Both the position numbers and the translations under genes were made by a program. This document shows, piece by piece, positions 1,893 to 17,756 of a stretch of 20,326 bases of DNA. This DNA comes from a virus: the IMG/VR virus record IMGVR_UViG_3300035228_001115, positions 1 through 20,326 of that record; one strand, written 5' to 3'. Numbering within the stretch: the first letter of the stretch is position 1; each line of letters opens with the position of its first letter. The notes under the pieces are model-generated. The model saw only the letters and a list, made by a program, of their open reading frames with translations, made no database searches and was not told the origin of the DNA.

Positions 1893-3962
1893 ATGCCCTT
1901 AGTCAATTTTAGCAACTTAGATTTTGATCAGATAAAGACATCCATTAAGGATTATCTCCGTGCGAATTCAAACTTCACGGACTATGACTTTGAGGGATCT
2001 AATCTATCAACTATTCTAGATACGTTAGCTTACAACACGTATATAACCTCATACAATGCCAATATGGTATCTAATGAGGTGTTTATCGATAGTGCCACCT
2101 TACGAGAGAACGTGGTGTCTCTCGCACGGAACATAGGTTATGTACCTAGATCTAAGAAAGCTCCTACCGCAAAGGTTTCTTTTACTGTAAATGTTTCAAA
2201 CACGACAGCTGTAGCTGTTACACTTAAAGCAGGTATAGTAATGGCATCCAGATCAACTGGTGTCAATAGTAATAGAAATTTCACATTCTCAATTCCAAAC
2301 GATATTACAGTCCCAGTTAACGCTGCAGGATTTGCGGACTTCTATAATATCAACATTTATGAAGGAACCTATGTCACACAAACATTTACTGTCGATACCG
2401 GCAACGTTAATCAGAAATTCATATTACCCAATTCTGGTATTGACACAGATTTATTATCGGTAATAGTTAGAGACACTCAAGAATCTACTGTAAGTAGAAA
2501 GTTTGAGCTGTTTAATAGTCTATTTGATGTTACTTCATCAACTAGAGCATATTTTATTCAAGAGATTGAACAAGAAAGATATCAACTTTTATTTGGTGAT
2601 GGTGTATTTGGTGTTGCGTTAGAGAATAGTAATTTTGTTGAAGCAAGTTATATCATTACTAATGGAGAAGTAGCTAACAATATCAATACCTTTGGTTTTG
2701 TAGGTAACTTAGAGTCTACTTCTGGAGCTACAATTAGTTCTGGGGTATCAATTATAACTACGGAAGTACCATCTGGTGGTGGTAAACCAATTGAATCTAT
2801 TGATTCGATTAAAAAATATGCTCCTCAAATCTATGCATCACAGAATAGAGCAGTAACTGCTGCTGACTATGAAGCACTAATTCCACAAATTTATCCTGAA
2901 GCAGAATCGGTTTCGGCATTTGGTGGTGAGGACTTGACTCCACCATCATATGGAAAGGTATTTGTAAGTATCAAGCCATATAATGGTGTCTTCTTATCAA
3001 GTGCAATCAAACAAAACTTACAACAACAGATGAGAAATTATTCTGTTGCAGGTATTTTATCGGAGATTGTTGACCTAAAGTATTTGTATATTGAATCAAA
3101 CTGTAAGGCATACTACGATTCTAATTTAGCACCAACTGCTTCATATGTTCAGAACCTAGTACTGACTAATATTGTCAAGTATTCTGAATCATCTGATGTC
3201 AATAAGTTTGGTGGAAGATTTAAATACTCCAAGTTCCAGAAGATCATTGACCAAAGTCATGAGTCTATTACATCAAACATTACAAACATTGATATTAGAC
3301 GAGATATTAATGCCCAACTGAATTCCTTTGCCGAGTATGAATTATGCTTTGGTAATCGGTTCTATATAAAAAACCATGGACATGGAGCGAACTTTGATGG
3401 AAATCTCATTGGGTACAATATCAAATCATCCGGTTTTACTGTCAGTGGTATTAGTGGAACTGTATACCTTGGCGATAAGCCGTCTGGTAATCTGACCAAC
3501 GGAACAGTGTTCCTATTTAAACTCAAATCTTCATCAGAACCATTTATTGTAAGACAAAATGTAGGTACTATCGATTATATGAAAGGGGAGATTAGATTAA
3601 ACCCTCTTAATGTGATATCTACAGTGGTAAATAGAGGCACTCCTTTGATTGAAGTATCGGCTCAACCTTACTCAAATGACGTGATTGGCCTCCAAGATCT
3701 CTATCTACAATTGGATGTAAATAATACAACAGTTAACGTTATTGCTGACAACATTTCCTCTGGAAATGACGTATCAGGAACTAACTATATTGTTTCTTCT
3801 AGTTATGGCTCTAACGTTTTAGTTAGAGGACAGGCCATATTCCAAAATGAAGTGACTCCTGCACAACGGGAGAATCGTAATATTACTTCCGTGATTACAT
3901 CTGCGAGTACAGGCAACAATGGTGCCTACACTGCAAGCAGAAGAACCAGATCATCTTACTAA
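1893..3962 (+). CDS. 6: Baseplate wedge subunit gp6
   Basis: The product has 689 residues against 660 for T4 gp6. In T4, gp6 dimers form the continuous ring of the wedge core that holds the baseplate together during its conformational change. The N-terminus is typical of the marine form: FSNLDFDQIKTSIKDYLRAN, then TDYDFEGSNLSTILDTLAYN (about residues 29-48), then ANMVSNEVFIDSA and RENVVSLARNIGYVPRS, a segment highly conserved in gp6. Further on are FGDGVFGV, a baseplate-J-like YEALIPQIYPEAESV segment, and FGGEDLTPPSYGKVFV with GGE at 344-346. The C-terminal part (about 500-689) is Ser/Thr/Asn-rich and beta-like. The ATG follows the gp25 stop with zero spacing; AGGT inside the end of gp25 could serve as ribosome site. 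A giant structural gene follows after 18 bases. Confidence 0.95.
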   Translation: MPLVNFSNLDFDQIKTSIKDYLRANSNFTDYDFEGSNLSTILDTLAYNTYITSYNANMVSNEVFIDSATLRENVVSLARNIGYVPRSKKAPTAKVSFTVNVSNTTAVAVTLKAGIVMASRSTGVNSNRNFTFSIPNDITVPVNAAGFADFYNINIYEGTYVTQTFTVDTGNVNQKFILPNSGIDTDLLSVIVRDTQESTVSRKFELFNSLFDVTSSTRAYFIQEIEQERYQLLFGDGVFGVALENSNFVEASYIITNGEVANNINTFGFVGNLESTSGATISSGVSIITTEVPSGGGKPIESIDSIKKYAPQIYASQNRAVTAADYEALIPQIYPEAESVSAFGGEDLTPPSYGKVFVSIKPYNGVFLSSAIKQNLQQQMRNYSVAGILSEIVDLKYLYIESNCKAYYDSNLAPTASYVQNLVLTNIVKYSESSDVNKFGGRFKYSKFQKIIDQSHESITSNITNIDIRRDINAQLNSFAEYELCFGNRFYIKNHGHGANFDGNLIGYNIKSSGFTVSGISGTVYLGDKPSGNLTNGTVFLFKLKSSSEPFIVRQNVGTIDYMKGEIRLNPLNVISTVVNRGTPLIEVSAQPYSNDVIGLQDLYLQLDVNNTTVNVIADNISSGNDVSGTNYIVSSSYGSNVLVRGQAIFQNEVTPAQRENRNITSVITSASTGNNGAYTASRRTRSSY

Positions 3963-3980: not shown

Positions 3981-4730
3981 ATGACAGTAGATAGAGTCAA
4001 GTTTCAAGAAATTGTTGAAAGTCAACTCCCTAGGTATGTTAGGGAGGATTTTCCTCTGCTAAATGAGTTTATTAAACAATACTATATCTCTCAGGAATTT
4101 GAAAGTGGTCCTATTGATATACTGAATAATATTGATGAATATGTAAAAGTAGATCAATTATGCGATATTGTTGACTCCACTGTACTGATTAGTGGATTAG
4201 ATACTAATGATACAACGGTTAAAGTAACCTCTACCCAAGGTTTTTCCGAAAATAACGGCATTATACAAATTAATAATGAAATTATATACTATGGAACCAA
4301 AACATCAACTACATTTGTAGATTGTTCTAGAGGTTTTAGTGGAGTTACGACATATATTACCTCTGGTGCACCTGATGAACTAACATTTTCTTCAACAATT
4401 GCAGAAAATCATCCTGTAGGGTGCTCTGTTAAGAATTTAAACATTCTTTTCTTGAAACAATTTCTAACTAAACTGAAAAGACAGGTAACACCTGGGTTTA
4501 CTGATAGAAATTTCTTCAAGGGATTAGATAAAAGAAACTTTATAATCAATTCTGATAGTTTTTATAAGTCGAAAGGTACAGAACAGTCATACGAAATACT
4601 TTTTCGAGCACTATATGGCGAAGATGTTGAACTTATTCGCCCGTCAAAATTTCTTTTTACTCCATCTAACGCCAACTATAAGGTCACTAAGGACTTTATC
4701 GTAGAACAACTTCAAGGCAATCCCCTTGAT
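3981..4730 (+). other. Conserved N-terminal anchor region of the giant protein
   Basis: Residues 1-250. Helical segments (EIVESQLPRYV, PLLNEFIKQYY, LFLKQFLTKLKRQV) flank a small beta insert at about 58-115 (STQGFSENNGIIQINNEIIY, then FVDCSRGFSG). They are followed by FYKSKGTEQSYEILFRALYG. Unlike the rest of the protein this part is helical and non-repetitive, which suggests that it docks the protein to the baseplate. The docking role is an inference. Confidence 0.55.
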
Positions 4731-7700
4731 TTGAAGAATCTTACCATATATCAAGACCTAACAGATGCAAGAGGGTCTGTTACTAACGTCCAGCAGATAC
4801 CTTATGAAGATTTTCAATACTATCAAATCAGTATTGACTCTGGTTTTGCTAGAGATAGTGATGTTAGTGGATCTATTTACGGAAAATTTAAACCAAATCC
4901 ACTTACAAAAGTCTTAAATGATGTAAGCACAGGTTCAACTATCATTGATGTTGACTCCACAATCGGATTTCCTGAGTTTGGTAAACTTAGTGTAGTGGAT
5001 ATAGACGATAATGAGGTATCTATTGCGTATAGTGGTAAGACTTTAAACCAATTTTTCAATACAAGTGGTGTTAGCAACCAAGTTTTAAAGAAAACTGACA
5101 TTACTTTAGACACATACTCTTATGCATTTGTTGGTATTAATACAAATCAAGAGATAAGGGTTAGATTTACTGCCGCAGTAACTGATTTTATTCCCAATGA
5201 CCACAATTTTTACTATAGAAAAGACGATACTATAGAATTAAAGTCTCTTGGTCTAGAATCCAAAAAGAAAAAGGCCAATAACTACGTATTAAATGTAAAA
5301 ACTTACTGGGATATTGTAAAATCCAGTGTTATTGATGCTAATGCATTTTCATATGAGTTTGATTTCCTAAAAACCCACTTTCTACGAGAGGGTTATACAG
5401 TAAGATACGAAAATTTAGACGGAACTTACTCTGTTTTAGGTACAGTTTCGAGAGTTATCTCATCATTAGCGGTTAGAGTAACTTTTTCGCAACAAATCAA
5501 CCTAAAAGGTGAGTTTGTAATCGAAAATCAAACGTTAAAAGGTGATTCTCAATTATATCCTTACCTAAATTCGTATATTGCCAATGTTTCTAATACTTAC
5601 TCCAAGTATAATGGCGATGTAATTATTGCGTCTAACTCTATTGCGAAATATAATAACGTTTTAACTGATCCCTACGATAAAAAAATAACTTTTAGTGCAA
5701 ATCTTGTCTCTACAGACATTCTCACACTACCAACTAACCCCACAAACAGACCTGATCATGGTTTTTATACTGGGGATGCAGTTTATCTCAATTTTACAGG
5801 AAATACCTTTGAGGGAGTACCCACAGCATCTTATTTTGTCTACAGAATTAATGAAACTAGTATAAAACTTGCTAGAAGTAAGGCTGACCTATCTAGAAAA
5901 ATTTACATTACCTTTAATGGTTCTGTAGTCGATGCATCTATTACATATCTTGATTTTTATAATAAACAAATAGAACCCCAAGGTTTATATCGTCAAATCT
6001 TGGCCCCAGTTAACGATAACCAGACTTATAACACTAGAGCCGGTTATATCGGTATGTTTATCAATGGTGTTGAACTACTAAACTATAAGGATCAAAGTAG
6101 TGTTTATTATGGTCAAATTGATAGTCTATCCCTGACTGCCGGAGGGGAAGGATACGATATTATTAGTCCCCCAATAGTCTCAATTAGAGATGAAGTTGGT
6201 ACTGGTGCCACCGGTATTTGTAATGTAAAGGGTTCACTCATAAGACTTGATGTTTTAGACACTGGTCTTGGTTATTATGCTCCTCCAACTATCGCCATTA
6301 AAGGTGGTAATGGTAGTGGTGCAAAAGCAGAACCAAGAATGACTTCTATTAAGCACGAAAACTCATTCTTTGCAGATTTTCCAAGTCAAGTAAATCTTGT
6401 CACTAATAGTATCATTTTCCCAAGTGACCATAAATTCTTGACTGGTGAAGAAATAATCTATCAACCAAGAGGAACTGAAGTAGTTGGTGGTCTTACTACT
6501 GACGGATCATATTATGTTCAGGTTACTGGTGAGAAGAAGATGAAGCTTCATACATCAGTAAATGATTCCTTTGTTGGTATCAATACTGTCAATTTAGTTA
6601 AGTATGGTTCCGGTACACAATATTTTGTTGCAGCTGAGCTAAAGCAGGTTGTGTCTTCGGTTGTAATTACTAATCCTGGTATAAATTACGAAAATAAGGA
6701 AAGAACAATTCCTCCAGCAGTAGGGGTCAATACTGCAGCAAATCAGATACAAATTATAAATCATGGTTATGAGTCGAAAGAAATTGTAAGATATACGAGA
6801 CCAGAGTCTGGTTCTGACGATAGAGTTGTTGGACTAAAACAGCAGACTGATTATTTTGTTGTTAAAGTCGATGATAATGCATTCTCCCTAACAGAAGTTG
6901 GTGCTGAACCTGTTGCAACAGATTATTATTTTGACAATGGTATCATTATTAACTTCAGTAAGGAAGGTTTAGGTTCTTTCAATTATCCACCAATTACGGT
7001 ACAAGTTGAAGGAGCAGCAGCATCCTATGACTTAACCTTTGTTGAGGACTTCCAGGAACTCTTTATAATCGAATCCCCGATTGAAGAAAATATTACGACT
7101 CCTGTGTTCGTTCTTGCCTGGACAGATACTGAAGCAGAGATCACAAATAATGGTTTAGTTCCAGATGAATGGTTTGTCGAAGTAAGCGAAGGTAGTAACT
7201 GGTTAATTAGTGATGATCCATTTGTTGGTAATATTCTTTTATATGATGCAAAACTTCAACCAATCTTTAGAGGATCTATTGAGACAATTGATCTAACTTC
7301 AAATGGTGTTGGTTATGGTTCTTCAGATATTGTTGATTTTGTAAGACAACCTGAAATTACATTTGACTCTGGTATTAATGCAAAATTGACTGCTATCGTC
7401 AATAATGGAGAAATTGTAGAAGTTGTTGTTAATACTCCAGGCAGTGGATACAATTCTCCACCAGACTTGCAAATTGTTAGTGAGACTGGTAACTATGCTG
7501 TTCTAGTTCCCATTATTGAAAATGGATCTATCAGTAGTATACTCATATCAAAACATGGTGCTGGGTATGTTGCAGGAAAGACTTTTGTTAATGTAGTACC
7601 GTCTGGTAAAGGTGCTAGAGTGAATGCAAATATCCAAGCTTGGAATATAAATGTATTCGAGAAAACTTTTAATAATATACTAGATGATGATGGTTTTATT

Positions 7701-10700
7701 GAAGAAAATATTTCTAACGAATCTTTAGAATACTGTGCAGTATATGTACCTAGAGCTCTTAGAAGAAGTCTGAATGTAGTAAATGGTTTTAATAAAAATA
7801 ATGAGTTATATGGTACTTTTGACTTAAGTTTCGATCCACAGACTGATGAAGAAATTTCCAATCTGTACCACTCTCCTATTGTAGGATGGGCATATGATGG
7901 AAATCCAATTTATGGTCCATATGGGTTTAGAAATATTGATGGTACTGGTCCAATCACCAGAATGAAAACAAGCTATAAAATCGAAAGATTTCAAAAGGGT
8001 CGTCCACCATATAATGCATTCCCTAATGGATTTTTCACAAATGATTACATCTTTACTGGTGATGGGGATTTAGACATTCATAATGGAAGATTCTGCGTTA
8101 CCCCAGATTATCCAAATGGAATATATGCATACTTCTGTACTATTTCAGAGGAAGTTGCTTCTAGTGGTCCATTCAATAACTATAGAACTCCTGTATTTCC
8201 GTATGTAGTTGGCAATACGTATAAGTCAACACCAATTGCTTTTAATTACCTGTCAAGATCTAATCAAACTGATTATGATATTGAAGGTAAGGGTTGGTTT
8301 AGGAATACTAAGTACTACTATACTAATGGTGGGAAGAGTGGATATGATTATATCTTCAATTCAAACCGTGTAAGGAAGCAGACCGTTGATGTTACTGCAA
8401 CATCAATAGGAAGTATCGATAAAATAGATATATTTGATGCTGGTCAAGATTATAAAGTTAATGACAGAGTATTATTCAATAATACCAATACTGGAGGTAG
8501 AAACTTAGATGTTAAAGTATCTCGAATTGTTGGAAAGGAGTCTACTAATGTAAGTCTTGCAACTACAACTATTGACAACGTTGAATTATATTCAGATACC
8601 CTTTCTAGTCGATTTGTTGGTTTGACTTCGGAACCACACAATTTTATCCCTGGTAACATTATCTTTATCGATGGTCTTTCTACCAGTTACAAGAATTTAC
8701 AAGGTTCTTATAGTGTTGGTGTAACTAGTGAGAGATGGTATACCTCTTTGGGTATTGCTACAGGATCTGTTACTGGTATTGTAACTTATGTGTATGTGTC
8801 CGGTTCACTTGATGAATCTATTATAGGACCAGATGACATCTTAAGAATTGAAACCGAAAAACTTAAGGTTCTGAATATCGATCAATCTTCAAGTCGGATT
8901 AGAGTTTTAAGAGGTTATCATGGTAGTGCGGCAGTTACTCATAATTCAGGTGTCTTGGTTAGAAATGATCCTAGAAAGGTAACATTTACTGCTGCGGGTG
9001 TAACTACTACAAAGGAATTAGTAGCAAATAGACAACTCTATTTTACACCTAATGAAACAGTAGGTCTTGGTACCGCAGTAGTTGGGACTGCAACAACATT
9101 AGTCTTCTCTAATCCTGGTGTAGGTCAAACTCAGTTAAGAGTTAAACAACAACAACTTTACATTCCAAATCATAATTTGGGATTGAATACTCCATTAATT
9201 TACTATACTAATGGTGGAACATCTATTAATGCATGGAGTGGTATTACTAGTTCTAATATATTCCCTCTAGAATCCGATAGAAATCTTTTTGCTGTTCCTA
9301 TTACTAAAGATATAATTGGTATTGCAACAGGTATAGTTGGTCTTAGTAGCACTTCTGGCGAATATGTTGGAATTGTAACTACTATGGGTGGTCTACTGTA
9401 CTTTACCAATTCCATTGGTCTTGGCAGTTATCATAGTTTTAAAACTAATATTTCGTCGGTATTGAATAGTAGAATTTCTGAAAATATTGTTACTGTCTCT
9501 ACTGCAACTACACATGGATTGAAACCTGGTGATGCAGTTTTTGTTGATGTAAATCCAACTACAACTACAGAAATATCTGTTGTTTATGATGATTATAATA
9601 GAAGAATTGTATTTGATCCTGATACAATTGAGCCCGCAGGAATTGATACTTCACTCAATACATTCAAAGTTCCTCCCAACAAATATCAAGTAGGTGACAA
9701 AGTTATCTACAACTCTATAATACCTGATCCAAGTCTTTCAAATAGTGGACTCTACTATGTTTATCTTTTTGAAAACGATAAGATCAAACTAGTTCAGTAT
9801 GCGTCCGAATTAGGTAGTGGTGATCCAAAGTTCATTAATATTGGAACTGCACATACAACTACTATTTCTAGAATTAACCCGTCAATTAAGGTTCAAAAAA
9901 ATCAAAAAATAAAATTTAATCTTACTGACGAGTCACTATCATTCTCCAACGCTGGAGCCAAGTTCCCCGCATTTGATATGTTCATCTATACCGATGGATC
10001 ATATACAAATAAATTCTGGAATGGTATTAATTCTGACTCATTTGAAGTTGTAAAATCTGGAATTGTTGGTGTTGATAGTACTGCAAGTTTAACTCTTGAT
10101 GTTAGTGATTCTATTCCAAATAACTTATATTACAATTTTGAGCCCGATTTTATTGATATCAACTTACCAGTAAAATTGAAAAAATATACTGACACTACGG
10201 TTTACAACAATAATCAAATTAATATAGTTGATAATAAGTTTGACGGTAGATATGGAGTCACAGGTGTGACATCTATGAGTTTTGACTATAACATACCTTA
10301 TAACAGAGATACTACTAGTTCTTATGATTCTACTAATTCCGTCATTGAGTATGATACCACTTCAGCACGTGTAAGTGGTCCCATTTCTAGGCTGACAATA
10401 GTTAATAATGGTGGAGGGTATAAATCTCTTCCTGGATTTACCTCAGTAAGTAGTTCTAAAGGTTCTGGTGCACTACTACAGCCGTCCAGTACTTCTATTG
10501 GTACTATTCTAGGAACAAAAGTAAATTATATTGGTTTTGGTTATCCTTCCGACACAACTTTAAATGCTGCCGGCAATTTACCAGAAATTATGAGAATCGA
10601 ACCTTTGGCCTCATTTGAGTCTATTGGTATTACTTCTGGTGGTTTGAACTATTATGAGGTTCCTCAACTGGTTGTGATCGATGGAGCATCAAAATTACAA

Positions 10701-13700
10701 ATAACTGATGTAAAATTAGCATATGAATTGAATGACACTGAAGTTGATATTGTAGAAAATACAATTTCGTTGAATAATGTTACGCCATCCATTATTCCAA
10801 TCAATAACTCAAATGGACTTGGTGTTAGTTCCGTTACTTATAATTCTACATCAAAAATTGTAAGAATTTACTTATCCAAGCAATTTAGTGATCCACAAGA
10901 TTGGCCGTTTAAGGTTGGAGAACCGGTAATTGTTGAAAATATTGCAATTGGGTTCAATACCACTGGAAGAGGTTATAATTCTGAAAATTATGAATATGCA
11001 TTATTTGATGTAGTTGCAAATGATAGTAATCTTGGAGGTTCTGGTTCATATATTGAGTATGACCTCTCAAATTACATTGATTCTGACGAATTGCCGGGCA
11101 AAATAACATCTGTTGCAGCAGCAAAAGTAACACCAAAAACATATTTCCCAATTTTTGACATTAAACTCAAAATTTCTGATTTCTTCAACGGAGAACGAGT
11201 AACTAATGGCGAAAATGTAGGTATTGTAGAAAGATGGGATCCTGTTAGTGAGTATTTGTTTGTTTCCACTAATTCTGATTTTGAAGTTGGTAGTATTATT
11301 GAGTCCGAAACATCCCAGATTAAGTCTAGAGTTAAATCTAAAATTGATTTCAATTCGACCGTTACCATTGGTGCAGGAACAACATTTGTCGAGGGTTGGC
11401 AAACAAATTCGGGATTCCTAAACGATAACTTACAAGTTATACCTAACAATGAGTACTATCAGAACTTCTCATACTCACTTAAGTCAAGAGTTCCTTACAA
11501 AACTTGGGATGATCCAGTAAGTTCTCTGAATCATACTGCAGGTTTTGATAAATTTGCAGATTTAGTTATTGACAATAATGCTGCTGGTATTACATCAGCA
11601 ATAAATTCGACAATTGAAACAGTTGTGGATCTTATTGGGGAGGGTGATTTAAGATGTTTCCCTGATTTTGACGGAGCAACAGAAACTACTATTGATGTCA
11701 TCAACGGTAAGGTTGTATCTGATCAAATTATATTTGAAAACAAAATTCTATTAGATTACTTTGAATCCCGAGGAAATAGAGTATTAGACATCGATGATTT
11801 TAGTGGAAGCTTTAATAGTAATCCAAGATCGACAAAATACTCTATTATAAAATTCTTTGATAACAAGTTCTTCTTCAACAAATTCTTTACTTTAGTTCAG
11901 GATAGTGAACTAAGAAATAGAAAACAAACCAGTATTGTTTCTGTAGTACAGGACGGAAATAGAGGTTTTATTAACCAATATGGTATTTTAGATACTGCCA
12001 AGCCTCTAGGATACTTTGATTATATTGGTGTAGGAAGTAGTGAGTGGGGGTTAACTTTCCACCCAACACTGTTCAAGTATAACAACTACGATATTTCTTA
12101 CTTTGCATTCAGTGGATTAAATGATGTAACTGGAATTGGAACTCAAGAACTTGGTGATGTAGTTAAAATTTCTACCGCAAGTACTAATGTATCTGTTGCA
12201 ACCACTACGAATTTAGTATCAATTTCTTCCACATATAGAGCTGCAAAACTTCTTATTCAAATGGAAGATGCAGAAAATAACTATTATGGAAATGAACTCA
12301 ACATACTTCACGATGGAACAAATGTAACCACTCTTCAATATGGTGCAAATGACAATAAAGTTGGTCTTGCAGGTCTACCAAGTTCTGGATTTGGAACCTA
12401 CAATGCATACATTTCAGGAGGATTGATAAAAGTTGACATTATTCCTACTGTGGGAACTGCGGTTACTGCAAATATAAGTATCGTATCTATTGCAGACAAT
12501 AATGCCACTGGGGTATCTACGACAAATCTTGTAGTTACTAACTTAACATCGTATCAAAAAGCTATTGCATCTTCTGGTTCTCCTGTTGCAAATGTAGTTG
12601 CATCTTACACATCTCCATTCAATTCTGAATACTTTATTGTATCTGTAGAGGATACTACAAATAATGAATATGAGATGTTTGAAGTAAATGTACTTGATAA
12701 TGCTAATTTTGACCGAATTGTAAAATATGGAGATATTAGGACCGGTGCAGGTATTGGAACCGTTGGTGTTACTCATACTGGGAACGAAACTAAACTTGTA
12801 TACACACCAAATCCAAGTATCGATGTTCAAGTAAGAGCGTTTGGTATTTCACTTAAGAACTATGATGATATTGTTGGTATTTCTTCTATAGATCTCAACA
12901 ATAACATATTATTCTCCGATTTTGGTACTTACACTGGTACCGAATTTGATAAGAAGACATCGTTTAGATTAGAATCCGATCAACTCCCAATATTCCAAAG
13001 AATATTTGTTGGAAATAGTACTTCTGTGGTCAATACGACTAATAATCAAATTACATTGAATGATCACTATTTTGTAACCGGAGAAAAGGTAAATTACAGT
13101 TATGAAAACTCCAATCAGTCAACTGCAAATGCTATTGGTATTGGGACTACTACAGTAGCTGGAATATCAACCGATAAACTTCCATCTACTCTATATGCTG
13201 TAAAATTCAGTGAAAGTTCTGTCGGATTTGCAAAAAGTGCAACTGATGCATTAAAATCAAGTCCTATCGTTCTCAATCTTGAGTCAGTTGGTATTGGAAC
13301 ATTCCACAAAATTAGTTCAACTAATCAAAATGCTCGATCATTGTTGGCTATCGACAATATGGTCCAGTCACCAATAACCGAAGTTAATATTGAAACTCAA
13401 TTGACTGAAAGTGTTATATTTGACGTTGATTTCAATGTTGTTGGAATTGAATCATTCAAAGCGGCAGATATCATTAAAATTGATAGTGAGATTATGCTTG
13501 TCCAGAACACTGGGGCTACTGGTCCGAATAGTCTAAAAGTTCTGAGGGGACAACTAGGATCTAAAGTTGCTTCACATAACATAGGAACTTCCGTCAATTT
13601 ACTTGGAGGTAACTATAACATTGTCGATAATATAGTTCACTTTGCATCTGCTCCTGCTGGAGCAACACCCATTGGAACAACTACAGCAGGTCCAGACAAC

Positions 13701-16118
13701 GTTGATTGGGTTGGTGTTACTACAAGTTCTAGTTTCCAGGGTAGAACCTTCATGAGAAGTGGTATTCTCAATGATGATCTCGACACATATGCAACAAACT
13801 ATACTTTCGATAATATCCAAAATGGATTTAATGGACAAAGAAAGGTCTTTAGTCTGACTCAAAATGGTGAGAATTTGGTTGGATTTGCAACTAACCAAGC
13901 AATCATACTCAATTCAAATATTCTTCAGGAACCACAGGGTGGCCAAATAACATCTGGTGATTATAGTTTCCTTGAAGTTGCGGGTGTAACTAGTATCACT
14001 TATCTTGGTGAAAGTGTTTCTTCTGAAGAAGACCCGAATAAAGCTTCAATTCCTAGAGGAGGAACAATTATTTCTGTTGGTTCTACTCAAGGATTGGGTT
14101 ATCAACCATTAGTTGGTGCTGGTGCATCGGTATTTGTTAATAGTGGAGGTACGATTACTTCAATCAGTATTGGTAATAGTGGTTCTGGTTATAGAACCGG
14201 TATTCAAACCCATGTAAGTGTTGGTATTATTACATCCTCAACTGGAGATGTCACCGTTATTGGTATTGGTACTGCAAATATCGTTGATGGTCATGTAGAT
14301 AGCATTGATCTTTACAATCTTGGTTCCAATCTAGATTTCAACAATCCACCTGTCGTTGTTATTGACCAACCGATTGGTTATGCAAATATTCCTTTAGTCT
14401 ACAGTTCTACTGCTCCAGCTGGAGTTGGTACTGGAGCAAGAGTTGATATTGTCGTTGGTCAAGGTTCTAGTGTTATTAATTTTGAGATTATAAGTGGTGG
14501 TTTTGGATACAACATCGGTGATAAACTCAACATTGCTATTGGTGGAACAACCGGTATTAGGACTGATTCAAGTATCCCATTCACACCCTTCGAATTAAGT
14601 ATTACTGATGTATATCGTGATACTTTTAATGGTTTTACTGTTGGAGAACTTGATGTATTTGATAATTTAAACGATTTGTTCGACGGTTCTACGACAAAGT
14701 TCCCTCTTACGATTTCTAATCAACAATTTGCTATTGAAACACAGAAAGGTTCAAATATCAATCTTTCTCAAGCATTAATTATAACAATCAATGACACTCT
14801 ACAGATTCCTGGGGAGGCATATAGCTTTACTGGTGGTGGTTATGTAGAATTTTCAGAACCTCCTAAAAAAGGTGACACTTGTAAAGTTATATTCTACAAA
14901 GGAACACCAGATGTTGATGTGGTCTTTGTTGATATTCTTGAGACGGTTAAAATTGGCGATACCCTACAACTTAAAAATGATATTACGAAAGGTCAAACTT
15001 TTGGTTTATATCAGGATCCAAGAGTAGTTACGGGTATTACTACACTTGATACTGTAGCTACTCTTGGATATAACGGTCCTGGTGTTACTACAAATACTTC
15101 TTTAGTACGACCAGTTACTTGGTGTAAGCAAGTCAATGACATCACAATTAACGGTGATTTTGTGACCAAAGATAGAATTGATCAGGAACCATACATTTAT
15201 CCTTCAGCATATCTAACATCTTACATCGGTGTAACTAGTAATTTTGCATATTATGATCACATCAGACCATTGTTTAACTCTAGGGCAGAAACAAACCTTC
15301 TGGATTATCAAGATAAAATTGTAATGGTAGATCAGGGAACTATTAATGTTGCTACTGCAACAGGTACAACTAGTTCTACCGGAACAATCTCATCATTCAC
15401 GATAACTAATGTTGGTGCCGGATATTCCTACTTGACAAATCCCGCAGTATCAGTTTCTTTACCTGATAATAATGGTGAAATTAGAGCAACAGGTATTGCG
15501 TCAGTAACTGGCGATGGTGTCACATCTATTTCTGTATCTAATGCAGGGACAGGATACACTCAAGCACCTACTGTCCTCATTGAACAACCTACGGTAAGAA
15601 GAGAACAGATTGGAGTTGCGTCGTTCTTTGGTGATTATGGTTATATCGTTGGTTATGCCCATTCAGGGATCAATACTGCGTTTATTGAACTTCATCTACC
15701 TGAAGATTCTTTTATGAGAGATCCCGCAATCGCAGGTGTTGCAGTTACGGTCAGTCAATTGATTCCTGGTGATATATTTGTCGTTAATGAGTCAAATATT
15801 GGCATATTTACCGGAAATAATTTCGATGGAATTTACCATGTGAAGAGTGCAGAAACTGTTACTAAAAATCTTTCAAATATTGGTCTTGGAGTAACACAAG
15901 TTAGAAGAGTTGAATTTACAAGTCAAGGATATTCTTCTGGTTCTGGGACATTTAACAACGAACGTATATACGGTGAATATACCTGGGGTAAGGTTCAATT
16001 CCTCAACAGGACTCTAGATACTGCTCTTGAGTTCTTCCCAGAAAATTACAGTGGGTTATCAACATCGCCTCTTATGCAGAGACTTGAACCATTGAAATTC
16101 AATAATTATAATGTTTAG
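3981..16118 (+). CDS. Giant modular virion structural protein, 4045 aa, with YHYH domain (position of T4 gene 7)
   Basis: This is a single uninterrupted frame from ATG 3981 to TAG 16116-16118. The N-terminal 250 residues (MTVDRVKFQEIVESQLPRYV, then REDFPLLNEFIKQYY, then FYKSKGTEQSYEILFRALYGED near 192-213, then RPSKFLFTPSNANYKVTKDF) match, from memory, the conserved start of large structural proteins in T4-like cyanophages. After that the protein is a mosaic of beta-rich modules. About fourteen GxGY..PP repeats run from residue 713 to the C-terminal end, interleaved with H-F-TG repeats and several two-copy modules. A YHYH domain lies at about 1230-1400. The NNEYYQNFSYSLKSRVPY block starts at 2490. 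The end (GEYTWGKVQFLNRT ... RLEPLKFNNYNV) resembles the conserved C-terminus of these proteins. No signal peptide, membrane segment or protease motif was seen, and cysteines are few. It lies between gp6 and gp8 exactly where T4 has gene 7, but T4 gp7 is about 1030 residues and I see no clear similarity, so equivalence is only positional. It is most likely a baseplate-periphery or tail protein. No obvious ribosome site precedes it. Confidence 0.9.
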   Translation: MTVDRVKFQEIVESQLPRYVREDFPLLNEFIKQYYISQEFESGPIDILNNIDEYVKVDQLCDIVDSTVLISGLDTNDTTVKVTSTQGFSENNGIIQINNEIIYYGTKTSTTFVDCSRGFSGVTTYITSGAPDELTFSSTIAENHPVGCSVKNLNILFLKQFLTKLKRQVTPGFTDRNFFKGLDKRNFIINSDSFYKSKGTEQSYEILFRALYGEDVELIRPSKFLFTPSNANYKVTKDFIVEQLQGNPLDLKNLTIYQDLTDARGSVTNVQQIPYEDFQYYQISIDSGFARDSDVSGSIYGKFKPNPLTKVLNDVSTGSTIIDVDSTIGFPEFGKLSVVDIDDNEVSIAYSGKTLNQFFNTSGVSNQVLKKTDITLDTYSYAFVGINTNQEIRVRFTAAVTDFIPNDHNFYYRKDDTIELKSLGLESKKKKANNYVLNVKTYWDIVKSSVIDANAFSYEFDFLKTHFLREGYTVRYENLDGTYSVLGTVSRVISSLAVRVTFSQQINLKGEFVIENQTLKGDSQLYPYLNSYIANVSNTYSKYNGDVIIASNSIAKYNNVLTDPYDKKITFSANLVSTDILTLPTNPTNRPDHGFYTGDAVYLNFTGNTFEGVPTASYFVYRINETSIKLARSKADLSRKIYITFNGSVVDASITYLDFYNKQIEPQGLYRQILAPVNDNQTYNTRAGYIGMFINGVELLNYKDQSSVYYGQIDSLSLTAGGEGYDIISPPIVSIRDEVGTGATGICNVKGSLIRLDVLDTGLGYYAPPTIAIKGGNGSGAKAEPRMTSIKHENSFFADFPSQVNLVTNSIIFPSDHKFLTGEEIIYQPRGTEVVGGLTTDGSYYVQVTGEKKMKLHTSVNDSFVGINTVNLVKYGSGTQYFVAAELKQVVSSVVITNPGINYENKERTIPPAVGVNTAANQIQIINHGYESKEIVRYTRPESGSDDRVVGLKQQTDYFVVKVDDNAFSLTEVGAEPVATDYYFDNGIIINFSKEGLGSFNYPPITVQVEGAAASYDLTFVEDFQELFIIESPIEENITTPVFVLAWTDTEAEITNNGLVPDEWFVEVSEGSNWLISDDPFVGNILLYDAKLQPIFRGSIETIDLTSNGVGYGSSDIVDFVRQPEITFDSGINAKLTAIVNNGEIVEVVVNTPGSGYNSPPDLQIVSETGNYAVLVPIIENGSISSILISKHGAGYVAGKTFVNVVPSGKGARVNANIQAWNINVFEKTFNNILDDDGFIEENISNESLEYCAVYVPRALRRSLNVVNGFNKNNELYGTFDLSFDPQTDEEISNLYHSPIVGWAYDGNPIYGPYGFRNIDGTGPITRMKTSYKIERFQKGRPPYNAFPNGFFTNDYIFTGDGDLDIHNGRFCVTPDYPNGIYAYFCTISEEVASSGPFNNYRTPVFPYVVGNTYKSTPIAFNYLSRSNQTDYDIEGKGWFRNTKYYYTNGGKSGYDYIFNSNRVRKQTVDVTATSIGSIDKIDIFDAGQDYKVNDRVLFNNTNTGGRNLDVKVSRIVGKESTNVSLATTTIDNVELYSDTLSSRFVGLTSEPHNFIPGNIIFIDGLSTSYKNLQGSYSVGVTSERWYTSLGIATGSVTGIVTYVYVSGSLDESIIGPDDILRIETEKLKVLNIDQSSSRIRVLRGYHGSAAVTHNSGVLVRNDPRKVTFTAAGVTTTKELVANRQLYFTPNETVGLGTAVVGTATTLVFSNPGVGQTQLRVKQQQLYIPNHNLGLNTPLIYYTNGGTSINAWSGITSSNIFPLESDRNLFAVPITKDIIGIATGIVGLSSTSGEYVGIVTTMGGLLYFTNSIGLGSYHSFKTNISSVLNSRISENIVTVSTATTHGLKPGDAVFVDVNPTTTTEISVVYDDYNRRIVFDPDTIEPAGIDTSLNTFKVPPNKYQVGDKVIYNSIIPDPSLSNSGLYYVYLFENDKIKLVQYASELGSGDPKFINIGTAHTTTISRINPSIKVQKNQKIKFNLTDESLSFSNAGAKFPAFDMFIYTDGSYTNKFWNGINSDSFEVVKSGIVGVDSTASLTLDVSDSIPNNLYYNFEPDFIDINLPVKLKKYTDTTVYNNNQINIVDNKFDGRYGVTGVTSMSFDYNIPYNRDTTSSYDSTNSVIEYDTTSARVSGPISRLTIVNNGGGYKSLPGFTSVSSSKGSGALLQPSSTSIGTILGTKVNYIGFGYPSDTTLNAAGNLPEIMRIEPLASFESIGITSGGLNYYEVPQLVVIDGASKLQITDVKLAYELNDTEVDIVENTISLNNVTPSIIPINNSNGLGVSSVTYNSTSKIVRIYLSKQFSDPQDWPFKVGEPVIVENIAIGFNTTGRGYNSENYEYALFDVVANDSNLGGSGSYIEYDLSNYIDSDELPGKITSVAAAKVTPKTYFPIFDIKLKISDFFNGERVTNGENVGIVERWDPVSEYLFVSTNSDFEVGSIIESETSQIKSRVKSKIDFNSTVTIGAGTTFVEGWQTNSGFLNDNLQVIPNNEYYQNFSYSLKSRVPYKTWDDPVSSLNHTAGFDKFADLVIDNNAAGITSAINSTIETVVDLIGEGDLRCFPDFDGATETTIDVINGKVVSDQIIFENKILLDYFESRGNRVLDIDDFSGSFNSNPRSTKYSIIKFFDNKFFFNKFFTLVQDSELRNRKQTSIVSVVQDGNRGFINQYGILDTAKPLGYFDYIGVGSSEWGLTFHPTLFKYNNYDISYFAFSGLNDVTGIGTQELGDVVKISTASTNVSVATTTNLVSISSTYRAAKLLIQMEDAENNYYGNELNILHDGTNVTTLQYGANDNKVGLAGLPSSGFGTYNAYISGGLIKVDIIPTVGTAVTANISIVSIADNNATGVSTTNLVVTNLTSYQKAIASSGSPVANVVASYTSPFNSEYFIVSVEDTTNNEYEMFEVNVLDNANFDRIVKYGDIRTGAGIGTVGVTHTGNETKLVYTPNPSIDVQVRAFGISLKNYDDIVGISSIDLNNNILFSDFGTYTGTEFDKKTSFRLESDQLPIFQRIFVGNSTSVVNTTNNQITLNDHYFVTGEKVNYSYENSNQSTANAIGIGTTTVAGISTDKLPSTLYAVKFSESSVGFAKSATDALKSSPIVLNLESVGIGTFHKISSTNQNARSLLAIDNMVQSPITEVNIETQLTESVIFDVDFNVVGIESFKAADIIKIDSEIMLVQNTGATGPNSLKVLRGQLGSKVASHNIGTSVNLLGGNYNIVDNIVHFASAPAGATPIGTTTAGPDNVDWVGVTTSSSFQGRTFMRSGILNDDLDTYATNYTFDNIQNGFNGQRKVFSLTQNGENLVGFATNQAIILNSNILQEPQGGQITSGDYSFLEVAGVTSITYLGESVSSEEDPNKASIPRGGTIISVGSTQGLGYQPLVGAGASVFVNSGGTITSISIGNSGSGYRTGIQTHVSVGIITSSTGDVTVIGIGTANIVDGHVDSIDLYNLGSNLDFNNPPVVVIDQPIGYANIPLVYSSTAPAGVGTGARVDIVVGQGSSVINFEIISGGFGYNIGDKLNIAIGGTTGIRTDSSIPFTPFELSITDVYRDTFNGFTVGELDVFDNLNDLFDGSTTKFPLTISNQQFAIETQKGSNINLSQALIITINDTLQIPGEAYSFTGGGYVEFSEPPKKGDTCKVIFYKGTPDVDVVFVDILETVKIGDTLQLKNDITKGQTFGLYQDPRVVTGITTLDTVATLGYNGPGVTTNTSLVRPVTWCKQVNDITINGDFVTKDRIDQEPYIYPSAYLTSYIGVTSNFAYYDHIRPLFNSRAETNLLDYQDKIVMVDQGTINVATATGTTSSTGTISSFTITNVGAGYSYLTNPAVSVSLPDNNGEIRATGIASVTGDGVTSISVSNAGTGYTQAPTVLIEQPTVRREQIGVASFFGDYGYIVGYAHSGINTAFIELHLPEDSFMRDPAIAGVAVTVSQLIPGDIFVVNESNIGIFTGNNFDGIYHVKSAETVTKNLSNIGLGVTQVRRVEFTSQGYSSGSGTFNNERIYGEYTWGKVQFLNRTLDTALEFFPENYSGLSTSPLMQRLEPLKFNNYNV
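5735..6915 (+). repeat. H-F-TG modules, copies 1-3, in the giant protein
   Basis: Three copies of a roughly 60-75-residue module are visible. The signature is a short strand, then HGF/HKF/HGY, a TG-(D/E) or equivalent, an I/V-x-Y strand, a YYV/YFV strand, then a D/E-x-x-x-(I/M/F)-x-L strand. Copy 1 (about 5735-5960) has RPDHGFYTGDAVYLNF and SYFVYRINETSIKLARS. Copy 2 (about 6392-6620) has FPSDHKFLTGEEIIYQPRG and YYVQVTGEKKMKLHTS. Copy 3 (about 6735-6915) has QIINHGYESKEIVRYTRP and YFVVKVDDNAFSLTEVG. A GxGY..PP repeat pair lies between copies 1 and 2. Confidence 0.7.
6117..6345 (+). repeat. GxGY..PP repeat pair, first cluster (giant protein residues 713-788)
   Basis: Two consecutive units: LTAGGEGYDIISPPIVSI and VLDTGLGYYAPPTIAIKGG, each followed by a Gly-rich GTGATG or GSGAKA segment. 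The unit pattern is I-x-x-(L/V)-x-x-x-x-G-x-G-Y-x-x-x-P-P-x-(I/V)-x-I, then G(S/T)GA. A further divergent unit (VVITNPGINYENKERTIPPA) lies at about 6650-6720. Confidence 0.75.
7276..7641 (+). repeat. GxGY repeat triplet, second cluster (giant protein about 1100-1220)
   Basis: Three units in a row: LTSNGVGYGSSDIVDF, VVNTPGSGYNSPPDLQIV and ISKHGAGYVAGKTFVNVVPS. The linkers are short IVNNGEIVEV / IIENGSISSI strands, giving a period of about 40 residues. The triplet immediately precedes the YHYH domain. A lone divergent unit (IFDAGQDYKVNDRVLFNN) lies beyond it at about 8406-8535. Confidence 0.75.
7670..8180 (+). other. YHYH domain in the giant protein (about residues 1230-1400)
   Basis: The block SPIVGWAYDGNPIYGPYG at residues 1298-1315 is the hallmark of the YHYH domain, preceded here by LYH (1295-1297). 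The second half of the domain is present as DLDIHNGRFCVTPDYPNGIY with His at 1367, followed by AYF. The domain occurs in bacterial secreted proteins and in marine phage structural proteins; its biochemical role is not established. The first motif is degenerate (NLYHSP rather than YHYH), so metal or ligand binding through both His cannot be assumed. Confidence 0.8.
8805..8969 (+). repeat. LRG/HNxG module, copy 1 (giant protein residues 1609-1663)
   Basis: The pattern is D-D-I-L-R-I-E-T-E-K-L-K-V, a short loop, SRIRVLRGYHGSAAVTHNSG, then a strand. It matches copy 2 at 13455-13604 (ADIIKIDSEIMLVQNTG ... SLKVLRGQLGSKVASHNIG) at the VLRG, G and HN-x-G positions. A looser relative (QINNEIIYYG ... 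FVDCSRGFSG) is in the N-terminal region near 4260-4345. Confidence 0.7.
9150..9870 (+). repeat. H-F-TG modules, central cluster (giant protein)
   Basis: Further copies of the module seen at 5735-6915: QQQLYIPNHNLGLNTPLIYY from about 9150, ATTHGLKPGDAVFVDVNP from about 9505, and NKYQVGDKVIYNSI with LYYVYLFENDKIKLVQYA at about 9675-9810. The middle copy lacks the usual YYV/IKL ending and may be truncated. The strand pattern is conserved although the sequence has diverged strongly. Confidence 0.6.
10374..10685 (+). repeat. GxGY repeats, third cluster (giant protein about 2132-2235)
   Basis: Units: SRLTIVNNGGGYKSLPGFTS followed by SSKGSGALLQP, then VNYIGFGYPSD, then ITSGGLNYYEVPQLVVIDG. They show the same Gly-x-Gly/Asn-Tyr plus Pro plus hydrophobic strand pattern as the other clusters, with weaker conservation of the PP pair. 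Confidence 0.65.
11448..11567 (+). other. Conserved NNEYYQNFSYSLKS block of the giant protein (from residue 2490)
   Basis: NNEYYQNFSYSLKSRVPY, then WDDPVSSLNHTAGFDKFADL. This non-repetitive block is, as I recall, one of the best conserved internal segments of large structural proteins in T4-like cyanophages. It follows a GAGTTFVEGW/GFLNDNLQVI segment. Function unknown. Confidence 0.5.
12240..12765 (+). repeat. Two-copy EDxxNN module in the giant protein (residues 2754-2798 and 2882-2928)
   Basis: Copy 1 has AAKLLIQMEDAENNYYGNELN followed by ILHDGTNVTTLQYG. Copy 2 has SEYFIVSVEDTTNNEYEMFE followed by VNVLDNANFDRIVKYG and ends in a Gly-rich GAGIGTV. Shared positions are the ED pair, NN/NE-Y, a D/E-L/V-N-x-L strand and a (L/V)-x-YG end. 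The copies are about 128 residues apart, pointing to a duplicated domain of that size. Confidence 0.55.
13050..13315 (+). repeat. H-F-TG module, last copy (giant protein)
   Basis: ITLNDHYFVTGEKVNYSYEN, then LPSTLYAVKFSESSVGFAKS and IVLNLESVGIGTFHKI. This is the fullest copy of the module, with all strands and the G(I)GTFHKI ending typical of it in marine phage proteins. Confidence 0.7.
13455..13604 (+). repeat. LRG/HNxG module, copy 2 (giant protein residues 3159-3208)
   Basis: ADIIKIDSEIMLVQNTG, then SLKVLRGQLGSKVASHNIGT. It is the counterpart of the copy at 8805-8969. Both are followed within about 15-20 residues by a strand of the form (K)VTFTAAG / IVHFASAPAG. Confidence 0.7.
13806..14014 (+). 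repeat. FDG..FxLT module, copy 1 (giant protein residues 3276-3344)
   Basis: FDNIQNGFNGQRKVFSLTQN, then AIILNSNILQEPQGGQITSG and DYSFLEVAG. It has the same layout as copy 2 at 14658-14903: F-(D/N)-G-x-x-x-x-F-x-L-T, then a strand with (I/L)-x-(I/L)-N-(D/S)-x-L-Q-x-P-(G/Q), then Y-S-F. Confidence 0.7.
14150..14550 (+). repeat. GxGY repeats, fourth cluster (giant protein)
   Basis: Three units: ISIGNSGSGYRTGIQTHVSV, LYNLGSNLDFNNPPVVVIDQP and FEIISGGFGYNIGDKLNIAI. The linkers include GVGTGARVDIVV. The cluster lies between the two copies of the FDG..FxLT module. Confidence 0.7.
14658..14903 (+). repeat. FDG..FxLT module, copy 2 (giant protein residues 3560-3641)
   Basis: FDNLNDLFDGSTTKFPLTIS, then ALIITINDTLQIPGEAYSFT, GGGYVEFSEPPKKGDTCKVI and FYKG. 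This complete form (a LxxxINDxLQxPGxAYxFTGG core followed by F-x-x-P-P-x-x-G-D) is a common module in marine phage structural proteins. Copy 1 at 13806-14014 lacks the PP..GD..FYKG ending. Confidence 0.75.
15380..15594 (+). repeat. GxGY..PP repeats, C-terminal cluster (giant protein)
   Basis: FTITNVGAGYSYLTNPAVSV and SISVSNAGTGYTQAPTVLIE, separated by an NGEIRATGIASVTGDG linker. The second is the unit closest to the apparent consensus I-S-V-x-N-x-G-x-G-Y-x-x-x-P-x-V-x-I. The unique C-terminal domain (from about 15600) follows. Confidence 0.75.
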
Positions 16119-16154: not shown

Positions 16155-17756
16155 ATGGCATACCAAGGTATTAATACGGGTTCATCTCCCAATAGTGGAA
16201 CAGGTGACTCACTTATTGAAGGTGCCGAAAAGATTAATAGTAATTTTATTGAACTTTACAGTGTTGTTGGTAACGGTACTACTACCTATGTTGGTCTTGT
16301 AACTCAAATTACTGCTGGTACTAATGTCAGTATTAGTACCTCGTATGGTTCTGTTCAAATATCTTCTCAAGTACCATCACAGATAAACGTCACAAATTTA
16401 AATGTAAGTGGTGTTTCGACATTAGGTGTTACGTCAATAACGGGCTCTGCACTAATATCTGGTCCTGCGACAATTGTCGGTGTCACATCAATAACCGGTT
16501 CCGTACTTATTTCTGGTATTACCACTCTTGCAAATAGCGGTGGAATCACAACAACTGGTGGTGACCTTTATGTTGGTGGAGATTTGTATGTACTTGATGA
16601 TGTTATCTACGATGAGGTAACTGGTAGAAATATTAATATTACTGGTGTTGGTACATTTGGAACACTTAATGTATCTGGTCTTAGTACAGCAAAAGACTTG
16701 ATAGTTACGGGAATTTCAACATTAACTGGTAACGTAAGTCTTGGTTCATCTATTACATTATCTGACGATAAGCAGATCTTACTTGGAGATAATGCCGAAT
16801 TTTCACTTTCACATGGTGATTCTACTGGAAACCTAATTGAGTCAAAAACAGGTGCCTTCAATTTGAAGGGTGGCACCCTCAATATTATTGCTGGTACGGC
16901 AAATACAGTTGTTGCTTCAACAAACCCAGATGGTAACTATGGTATTGAGTTCTATTATAATAATGTAAAACGATTAGAAACAAGAGCAGGTGGTGTTACC
17001 ATTCTTGGGGATGTAAGATCTACTGGTGTTATAACTGCTACATCAGATGTTGTAGTCCTTGGTAGGACTATTGGTTTTAGTACTGCATTGTTTGGCGAGA
17101 TGCAGGCTAATAGCCTAGCCCTCACGACCGGCAATATAACTGGCGATAATAATACTAACATCAGTGGAATCAATAGCGTAACTGCTGCCACATTCTTTGG
17201 TAGTGGTTCTGGTATGACTGGTGTCGTTACATCCATTATTGCTGGCACTAATATTACACTTACTGGTGGACCAACAGGTAGTATTACCATTGCGGCATCG
17301 GGTGGTGGTGGTGTAGGTGTAGGTACGACAAATGTAAGTACTAATTCATTAGTCGTCTCTGGTATTTCTACTCTAGGTATTGTAACTAATGCAACATATT
17401 ATGGTGATGCATCAAATATTACTTCTGCTAGATGGGTTTTGGGTGCGGATGGTAGTACTCACTATCAATTCACAGGTCCTGGTGGTCTAAACGTAACAGC
17501 AGATCCTGTTATCTATCTTGCAAGAGGACAAAAGTACGAATTTGTTAATAATATGGGTGCTCACCCATTTGAAATTAGAGTATCAAATGGTGGTTCTGCA
17601 TATACTAATGGTATAACGGTACAGGGAACCACATCAAATGGAACTACAACTTTTGATGTCCCGTTTGATGCACCAAACTCACTATATTATCAATGTACTG
17701 CTCATGCGGGTATGGGTGGAACTGTTGTAGTATATCCCGACCTGTTTACAGTCTAA
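16155..17756 (+). CDS. Tail-fibre-like virion protein with C-terminal cupredoxin-like domain, 533 aa
   Basis: The N-terminus (MAYQGINTGSSPNSGTGDSL, then AEKINSNFIELYSVVG) is the GTGD...KIN.NF.ELY segment found at the start of many marine phage fibre-type proteins. The centre (about 50-360) is a chain of short VSGxSTLG / ITGxxxISG repeats, as in trimeric beta-helical fibres. It includes an LGDNAEFSLSHGDSTGNLIE segment and a GNYGIEFYYNNVKRLETRAG segment that belong to a module common in cyanophage fibres. QITAGTNVSIS and SIIAGTNITLT mark two related strand-turn units. After a Gly-rich linker (about 385) comes a domain from about residue 425 to the end. Its YLARGQKYEFVNNMGAHPFE and SLYYQCTAHAGMGGTVVV segments resemble type-1 copper proteins, with potential ligands His470, Cys514, His517 and Met520. 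A late-type promoter lies before the gene; AAAGGA (16136-16141) could be a somewhat distant ribosome site. The virion role is inferred from neighbours and repeats. Confidence 0.85.
   Translation: MAYQGINTGSSPNSGTGDSLIEGAEKINSNFIELYSVVGNGTTTYVGLVTQITAGTNVSISTSYGSVQISSQVPSQINVTNLNVSGVSTLGVTSITGSALISGPATIVGVTSITGSVLISGITTLANSGGITTTGGDLYVGGDLYVLDDVIYDEVTGRNINITGVGTFGTLNVSGLSTAKDLIVTGISTLTGNVSLGSSITLSDDKQILLGDNAEFSLSHGDSTGNLIESKTGAFNLKGGTLNIIAGTANTVVASTNPDGNYGIEFYYNNVKRLETRAGGVTILGDVRSTGVITATSDVVVLGRTIGFSTALFGEMQANSLALTTGNITGDNNTNISGINSVTAATFFGSGSGMTGVVTSIIAGTNITLTGGPTGSITIAASGGGGVGVGTTNVSTNSLVVSGISTLGIVTNATYYGDASNITSARWVLGADGSTHYQFTGPGGLNVTADPVIYLARGQKYEFVNNMGAHPFEIRVSNGGSAYTNGITVQGTTSNGTTTFDVPFDAPNSLYYQCTAHAGMGGTVVVYPDLFTV
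16425..16532 (+). repeat. Tandem duplication of an 18-residue unit (2 x 54 bp) in the fibre-like protein
   Basis: The two adjacent units begin at residues 91 and 109: GVTSITGSALISGPATIV and GVTSITGSVLISGITTLA. They differ at few residues but at many silent positions (for example GTTACGTCAATAACG against GTCACATCAATAACC), so the duplication is old enough for synonymous drift while the protein has been held constant. Confidence 0.85.
17425..17753 (+). other. Cupredoxin-like C-terminal domain of the fibre-like protein
   Basis: Residues about 425-533. It is a beta-rich domain with a His in NNMGAHPFEIRV (His470) and a C-terminal Y-Y-x-C-T-A-H-A-G-M-G-G loop (Cys514, His517, Met520) before the last strand. 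The ligand order matches plastocyanin-type type-1 copper sites. The His-to-Met spacing is two residues, shorter than the plastocyanin C-x2-H-x4-M. Copper binding is therefore possible but unproven; the fold may be kept only as a structural or binding head. Confidence 0.65.

Follow-up and report, generated by a model that had tools for sequence, protein, structure and literature searches.

The open reading frame at positions 3981–16118 (plus strand) encodes a 4045-residue, ~442 kDa protein that we assign as the gp7 of this phage, the baseplate wedge protein of the (gp6)2-gp7 heterotrimer, whose inserts would leave the wedge as peripheral arms; we place the probability of this reading, taken as a whole, at about 0.82. 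That the protein is a gp7 homologue with a split core is close to certain. Judged from sequence comparison, the family core is made up of two blocks: block N, comprising a helix-turn-helix and a helical/beta part bearing the motif FYxSKGT, and block C, a YYQ-SY-HPAGF element. Both are present in the giant protein, in order, at about residues 7–60 and 157–291 (block N) and 2444–2546 (block C). The window, that is, the whole stretch of DNA that was analysed, comprises an entire 20,326-base virus record; the search for a second gp7 core covered complete genomes of relatives.

The frame begins with ATG and continues for 4045 codons with no internal stop. Given that a stop-free run of this length has a chance probability of ~1e-130 at 35% GC, and that none of the other five frames stays open beyond 138 codons, the giant ORF is not a chance product. 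An earlier note made from the letters alone described one unbroken frame between gp6 and gp8, and this stands; the closest relative, phage S-B05, has one 4024-codon ORF at this position. Upstream on the same strand are genes for a gp25-like baseplate wedge/sheath initiator (1491–1892; PF04965, E 9.1e-17; phrog_261, 7.7e-55) and a gp6-like baseplate wedge protein (1893–3962; PF21379, E 2.1e-15; phrog_219, 2.5e-192). Downstream, also on the plus strand, the order given in that note requires one correction: a gene for a gp9/gp10-N-like wedge-to-fibre connector with a C-terminal cupredoxin-like domain (16155–17756; PF07880, E 5.2e-5; phrog_677, 7.3e-46) sits between the giant and the gene for the gp8-like baseplate wedge protein (17779–19338; PF09215, E 3e-10; phrog_438). 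The record closes with the start of a VrlC/DUF4815 gene distinct from gp7 (19344–20326, plus strand; PF16075, E 9.8e-26), with VrlC placed in the gene order as in S-SM2, P-HM1 and HTVC008M. By Pfam and PHROGs, the locus shows the gp6, gp7, gp8-region order of the wedge operon that marks the T4 gp7 family.

The cupredoxin-like end of the connector matches PF00127 (E 0.03) and TIGR03102 (E 0.009), both under their cut-offs, and possesses a His...Cys..His..Met pattern (AHPF...YYQCTAHAGM) resembling type-1 copper sites; the domain is found in 326 cyanophage records, often named 'baseplate wedge tail fiber connector'. The 208-residue product of positions 651–1277 is called 'ferredoxin' by its PHROG and 'PurM' or 'ferredoxin' in GenBank relatives. 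Pfam and NCBIfam give no backing for either label, which is likely a copied misannotation.

The relationship to gp7 was accessible to profiles alone: a phmmer search of the entire 4045-residue protein against the PDB returned no match, and the giant has none in NCBIfam. A 65-row profile of residues 1–470, queried against all 177,635 PDB sequences, ranked T4-type gp7 first and second (E 9.6e-6 and 4.4e-5), with the residue 159–291 part aligned to T4 gp7 725–758. A minimal-gp7 profile, built from short relatives taken from IMG/VR, also found gp7 as its best PDB matches (E 2.1e-8 and 1e-6), in which the order of the two blocks was kept; across the whole T4 genome its sole match was gene 7 (residues 647–837, E 8.4e-10). 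Profile–profile comparison with T4-type gp7 gave Prob 95.2 (E 2.7e-8) for cyanophage residues 1–520 and Prob 96.8 (E 2.8e-10, over T4 637–832) for the short non-cyanophage relatives. Controls comprising 13 other T4 virion proteins, reversed gp7 and gp7 1–630 stayed at Prob <= 1.3, with one unexplained exception, the short relatives against gp18 (Prob 43.6). Matches by tblastn to T4-type gp7 were weak (E 0.02–1), and nearly all of those shown lay in the gp7 gene. The Pfam family PF23786, 'Phage baseplate wedge subunit', scored 18.6 bits (E 0.0014) on residues 1–470, under its curated cut-off of 27 bits; 64 of the 65 aligned relatives matched it at E <= 1, the best at 4.7e-8.

Structure prediction concurs locally. 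The AlphaFold2 model of residues 1–470 (mean pLDDT 68) places helices at residues 8–15, 18–23, 25–39 and 44–54, and then within 153–212, supporting the helical N-terminus that had been proposed. For this model and for that of a 532-residue minimal gp7 (pLDDT 71), the three best Foldseek matches in the PDB are gp7. Both models are of moderate confidence and neither superposes globally on gp7 (TM 0.11–0.13); because of these low TM-scores, the agreement in fold is to be read as local. In a viral fold library, the N-terminal model also matches a 379-residue protein of Aeromonas phage 65 named Gp7b (E5DRT6), which suggests that gp7 can also be encoded in parts by separate genes.

The earlier note had left two alternatives, a gp7 replaced by or fused to a chain of repeat modules, or an unrelated protein in the wedge position. 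Profile, PDB and fold searches of the N-terminal part show the former to be right, with two amendments. The part of T4 gp7 that is matched is its C-terminal third (647–902) rather than its N-terminus, and the giant is not a simple extension; two insertions lie within the gp7 core and a further extension follows it. Slices of the giant compared with T4 gp10, gp8, gp9, gp11, gp12, gp6, gp5, wac, gp53, gp14 and gp7 1–630 gave Prob <= 3.1 and thus reveal no fused parts of the T4 gp10 type, and the T4-type N-terminal ~640 residues (gp7 1–630) have no counterpart anywhere in the giant. As the short gp7s also lack them, these 640 residues are not defining for the gp7 family as a whole. No second gp7 core was detected in 13 complete cyanophage and pelagiphage genomes.

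The anatomy of the core can be followed from block to block. The first half of block N, the helix-turn-helix expected to supply the core-bundle helices (residues 7–60; 3999–4160), is matched by an N-block profile at residues 7–69 (m1–63, E 2e-21) and by the minimal-gp7 profile over m8–60. Insertion 1 (residues 61–158; 4161–4454) holds one 66-residue 'A' beta module (E 5e-25), past which the second half of block N, including FYxSKGT, resumes (residues 159–291; 4455–4853; E 1e-34). Block N spans about 150 residues and is unbroken in T4 (649–759) and in the short non-cyanophage proteins; in all cyanophage giants examined and in HTVC008M it is cut near model position 47–63. The inserted segment measures 90–110 residues in most giants (~95 here) and about 570–610 in S-RIM8, S-WAM1 and S-SZBM1. 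The gp7s of these three phages (L041, L040 and L213, respectively; 6395–6737 residues) are the largest among those compared, and their ~600 residues within block N include middle-domain copies.

Block C (YYQNFSYSLKS...W...HTAGF; residues 2444–2546; 11310–11618) was first noticed through slice 2431–2522, a weak match to T4 817–888. Its motif, YYQ.FSY....W......HPAGF, occurs in every gp7-position protein examined (22/22), including five T4-type gp7s at about 849–891, and in each of 17 phages it is present as a single copy per genome, always in the gp7-position ORF. In the giant, the block N segment equivalent to ~T4 647–835 is found with block C after it, the T4 match of block C alone being weak (E 3e-4 in the 22-sequence set, 0.07 in the PDB). 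The two blocks occur together in all gp7-position proteins examined, from 503 to 6737 residues, and in 117 metagenomic ORFs, of which the complete non-cyanophage ones measure 488–1681 residues. The spacing from N to C is about 22–90 residues in T4, depending on the profile boundary, about 200–300 in short phages and ~2150 in the giant, while block C is followed by about 10–15 residues in the RHph_I1_18 and S-CREM2 proteins and by 1500 in the giant. Neither the split-core anatomy nor the unbroken range of sizes seems to have been described before; in the open-access full-text literature, we found no paper describing a split gp7 core.

A search with residues 1–1000 matched 462 phage records, which all come from cyanophages or marine phages and are labelled most commonly 'gp7' or 'baseplate wedge initiator'. 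Proteins in the same position measure 4024 residues in S-B05, 4307 in P-TIM68, 4156 in S-SM2, 3884 in S-CAM9, 4314 in S-CAM7, 4446 in P-HM1, 5195 in P-SSM2, 3045 in S-CAM3, 3048 in S-PM2, 6395 in S-RIM8, 6737 in S-WAM1 and 6619 in S-SZBM1, and, at the short end, 1937 in S-CREM2, 1016 in HTVC008M, 1007 in phiM12, 1288 in DLP6, 528 in RHph_I1_18 and 503 in IME-SM1; phages of other bacteria possess gp7 versions of 488–1700 residues. Giant gp7s of 3045–6737 residues are therefore standard in marine cyanophages, where they are already annotated "gp7", and the protein of this window is of ordinary size within a known class. Virion mass spectrometry detected 71 peptides of the 6619-residue gp7 S-SZBM1_208 (PMC9146016) and 91 peptides of the 1937-residue S-CREM2 ORF122 (PMC10665884); we find blocks N and C in both.

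The added mass lies in insertion 1, insertion 2 and the C-terminal extension. Insertion 2 (residues 292–2118; 4854–10334) carries A, B and C modules together with a YHYH-like domain and additional gp7 middle-domain copies, as delineated by module and minimal-gp7 profiles. Iterated profiles identify 24 modules in the giant (14 of the 31-residue GxGY type, six of 75 residues and four of 66 residues) and none of these in T4 gp7. The repeated beta modules of the earlier note are thus real, though they account for only about one third of the protein, and the remainder is not shown to be repetitive. The shared GxGY module, and not kinship with neck proteins, is the source of PHROG matches such as 'head closure Hc2' (phrog_460).

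The minimal-gp7 profile matches middle domains at five sites in the giant, and none in reversed-sequence controls. One site adjoins block C (residues 2119–2443; 10335–11309; m207–545, E 1e-10 at 2119–2543). About four extra copies lie elsewhere: residues 703–906 (6087–6698; m206–365, E 4e-5), residues 1089–1182 (7245–7526; m204–284, E 1e-5), a fragment at residues 1460–1547 (8358–8621; m236–321, E 2e-4) and a further copy in the region of residues 3429–3986 (14265–15938; m205–457, E 1e-4). The last of these falls in the C-terminal extension (residues 2547–4045; 11619–16115), which, by slice comparison down to its final residues, matches neither T4 gp7 nor gp10. The simplest reading of these profile matches is that the middle domain of gp7 itself was copied; the copies may instead have been captured from other GxGY-containing proteins of marine phages, because middle-domain matches also occur in other genes. 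No tandem DNA repeats were found, so any duplication would be old. The YHYH-like domain (residues 1295–1390; 7863–8150) corresponds to the C-terminal half of its family only (PF14240, E 4.8e-26, profile positions 90–184 of 193; 92.3 bits against a cut-off of 25), and the string YHYH is absent from every giant examined. This region is the most conserved stretch of the giant, at 49–62% to distant relatives against a median of 23.5 for 50-residue windows.

Three readings would deny the giant its identity as a single gp7. That the contig joined two or more genes is hardly credible: the contig is metagenomic and a close relative (L019) changes frame at residue ~2977, but single ORFs of similar length exist in the sequenced isolates S-B05, S-SM2, P-TIM68 and P-SSM2, and several metagenomic relatives have long unbroken frames. 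The break in that relative (L019:19009–19060), where its giant gp7 falls into two frames, is probably a sequencing or assembly frameshift. Non-homologous replacement, the second alternative of the earlier note, is very improbable. It would account for the dissimilarity between the giant and T4 gp7 along most of both chains, and for the absence of T4 gp7 1–630; it is contradicted by blind sequence and fold searches that each place gp7 first, by the conserved order of the two blocks and by intermediates of 488–1937 residues. Equally improbable is the reading that gp7 is missing and VrlC stands in its place, which draws on a published statement that cyano- and pelagimyophages lack gp7 and have VrlC instead (PMC7029224). 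Sullivan et al. also list gp7 among the genes of the non-cyanophage core only, remarking on strong divergence (PMC3037559). VrlC, however, is encoded by the DUF4815 gene that follows gp8 in S-SM2, P-HM1 and HTVC008M, and is a separate gene here, whereas it is the product of the gene next to gp6 that contains the gp7 core, the 1016-residue HTVC008M protein included (minimal gp7, E 1e-65). Our findings on the split core and the size range contradict the published statement. The pelagiphage protein in question, I899_gp055 (L043:33435–36485), is the gp7 of HTVC008M by a genome-wide search (E 3.9e-65), and its annotation as 'head closure Hc2' probably stems from the shared GxGY module.

Taken together, a structural model for the giant can be proposed. 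In the T4, T6SS and XM1 structures, the homologous chain belongs to a (gp6)2-gp7 trimer that has a trifurcation as well as a helical core bundle (PMC6300606; PMC10457771), and T4 gp7 touches gp10, gp8, gp9 and gp6, with one domain swinging outward upon triggering (PMC3004832). By analogy, residues 7–60 would pack against the N-termini of two gp6 chains to give the core bundle, the FYxSKGT part would make the trifurcation region, and block C would fold back beside these bundle and trifurcation parts. The inserted modules would project from the wedge as arms, forming the outer baseplate, anchoring gp8, the gp9/10-like fibre connector and further components at the periphery, and performing the work of the 640-residue N-terminal part of T4 gp7 plus gp10, gp11 and gp12. 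The protein probably grew as its middle domain was copied repeatedly and as modules widespread among marine phage structural proteins were recruited. We consider it probable that the added mass is a peripheral scaffold, and the giant may then form a major visible part of the tail periphery, as anticipated in the earlier note. A fuller version, that repeated copies of the middle domain were interspersed with recruited modules at three fixed positions around a conserved (gp6)2-gp7 core, such that in cyanophages six chains of 440–740 kDa constitute the entire outer baseplate in place of the T4 gp10/gp11/gp12 pins, is put forward tentatively.

Less likely still is that the gp7 core was fused to host-binding modules, the added mass being mainly a receptor-binding device (an adhesin or short-fibre substitute) rather than a scaffold. 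The 242-residue XM1 gp7 orthologue holds tail spikes through an internal loop (80–106) and the C-terminal part of the chain (PMC10457771). These sites correspond roughly to insertion 1 and the C-terminal extension of the giant, a parallel that speaks for the peripheral-arm reading too. Moreover, gp10 and gp12 are, like gp7, listed in the non-cyanophage core only (PMC3037559), and YHYH and similar domains have been treated as putative receptor-binding parts (PMC7029224). Conservation argues the other way: because the YHYH-like region is the most conserved of the chain, the opposite of a host-specific tip, its receptor-binding reading is disfavoured, and among eight giants most of the chain can be aligned, with no hypervariable segment standing out.

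The gp7 assignment settles the identity of the gp7 gene in a large group of ocean phages for which annotation and literature conflict. Blocks N and C provide portable landmarks for gp7 in divergent contractile phages, including mislabelled genes such as the 'head closure Hc2' of HTVC008M, and reveal that a core wedge component can accommodate hundreds to thousands of additional residues within its conserved portion. How the cyanophage baseplate functions in the absence of gp10 and gp12 relatives becomes a question that structures can test.

Compared with known systems, the giant resembles T4 gp7 (1032 residues; PDB 5IV5, 5HX2) in blocks N (647–835) and C (849–891) and in its position after gp6. 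In the T4 protein, by contrast, 640 N-terminal residues without equivalent in the giant precede the core, which occupies the C-terminal third; there are no A, B or C modules, and only about 22–90 residues separate the blocks. The short gp7s of IME-SM1, RHph_I1_18, phiM12, HTVC008M and DLP6, also encoded after gp6, have both blocks and one middle beta domain; they are 3 to 8 times smaller than the giant, and their block N is unsplit save in HTVC008M. In published structures, the XM1 gp17, TssG and P2 gpI wedge proteins have the same role, in which a single chain combines with two gp6-like chains to form a core bundle and a trifurcation; their likeness to the giant rests on the gp7 link. Closest are the giants of S-B05, P-TIM68, S-SM2 and P-SSM2, which occupy the same position, contain the same module types and are co-linear with the present protein over most of its length; over the first 1000 residues, identity is 65% to S-B05 and 30–46% to the other three, and the proteins differ only in sequence and in the length of the added parts.
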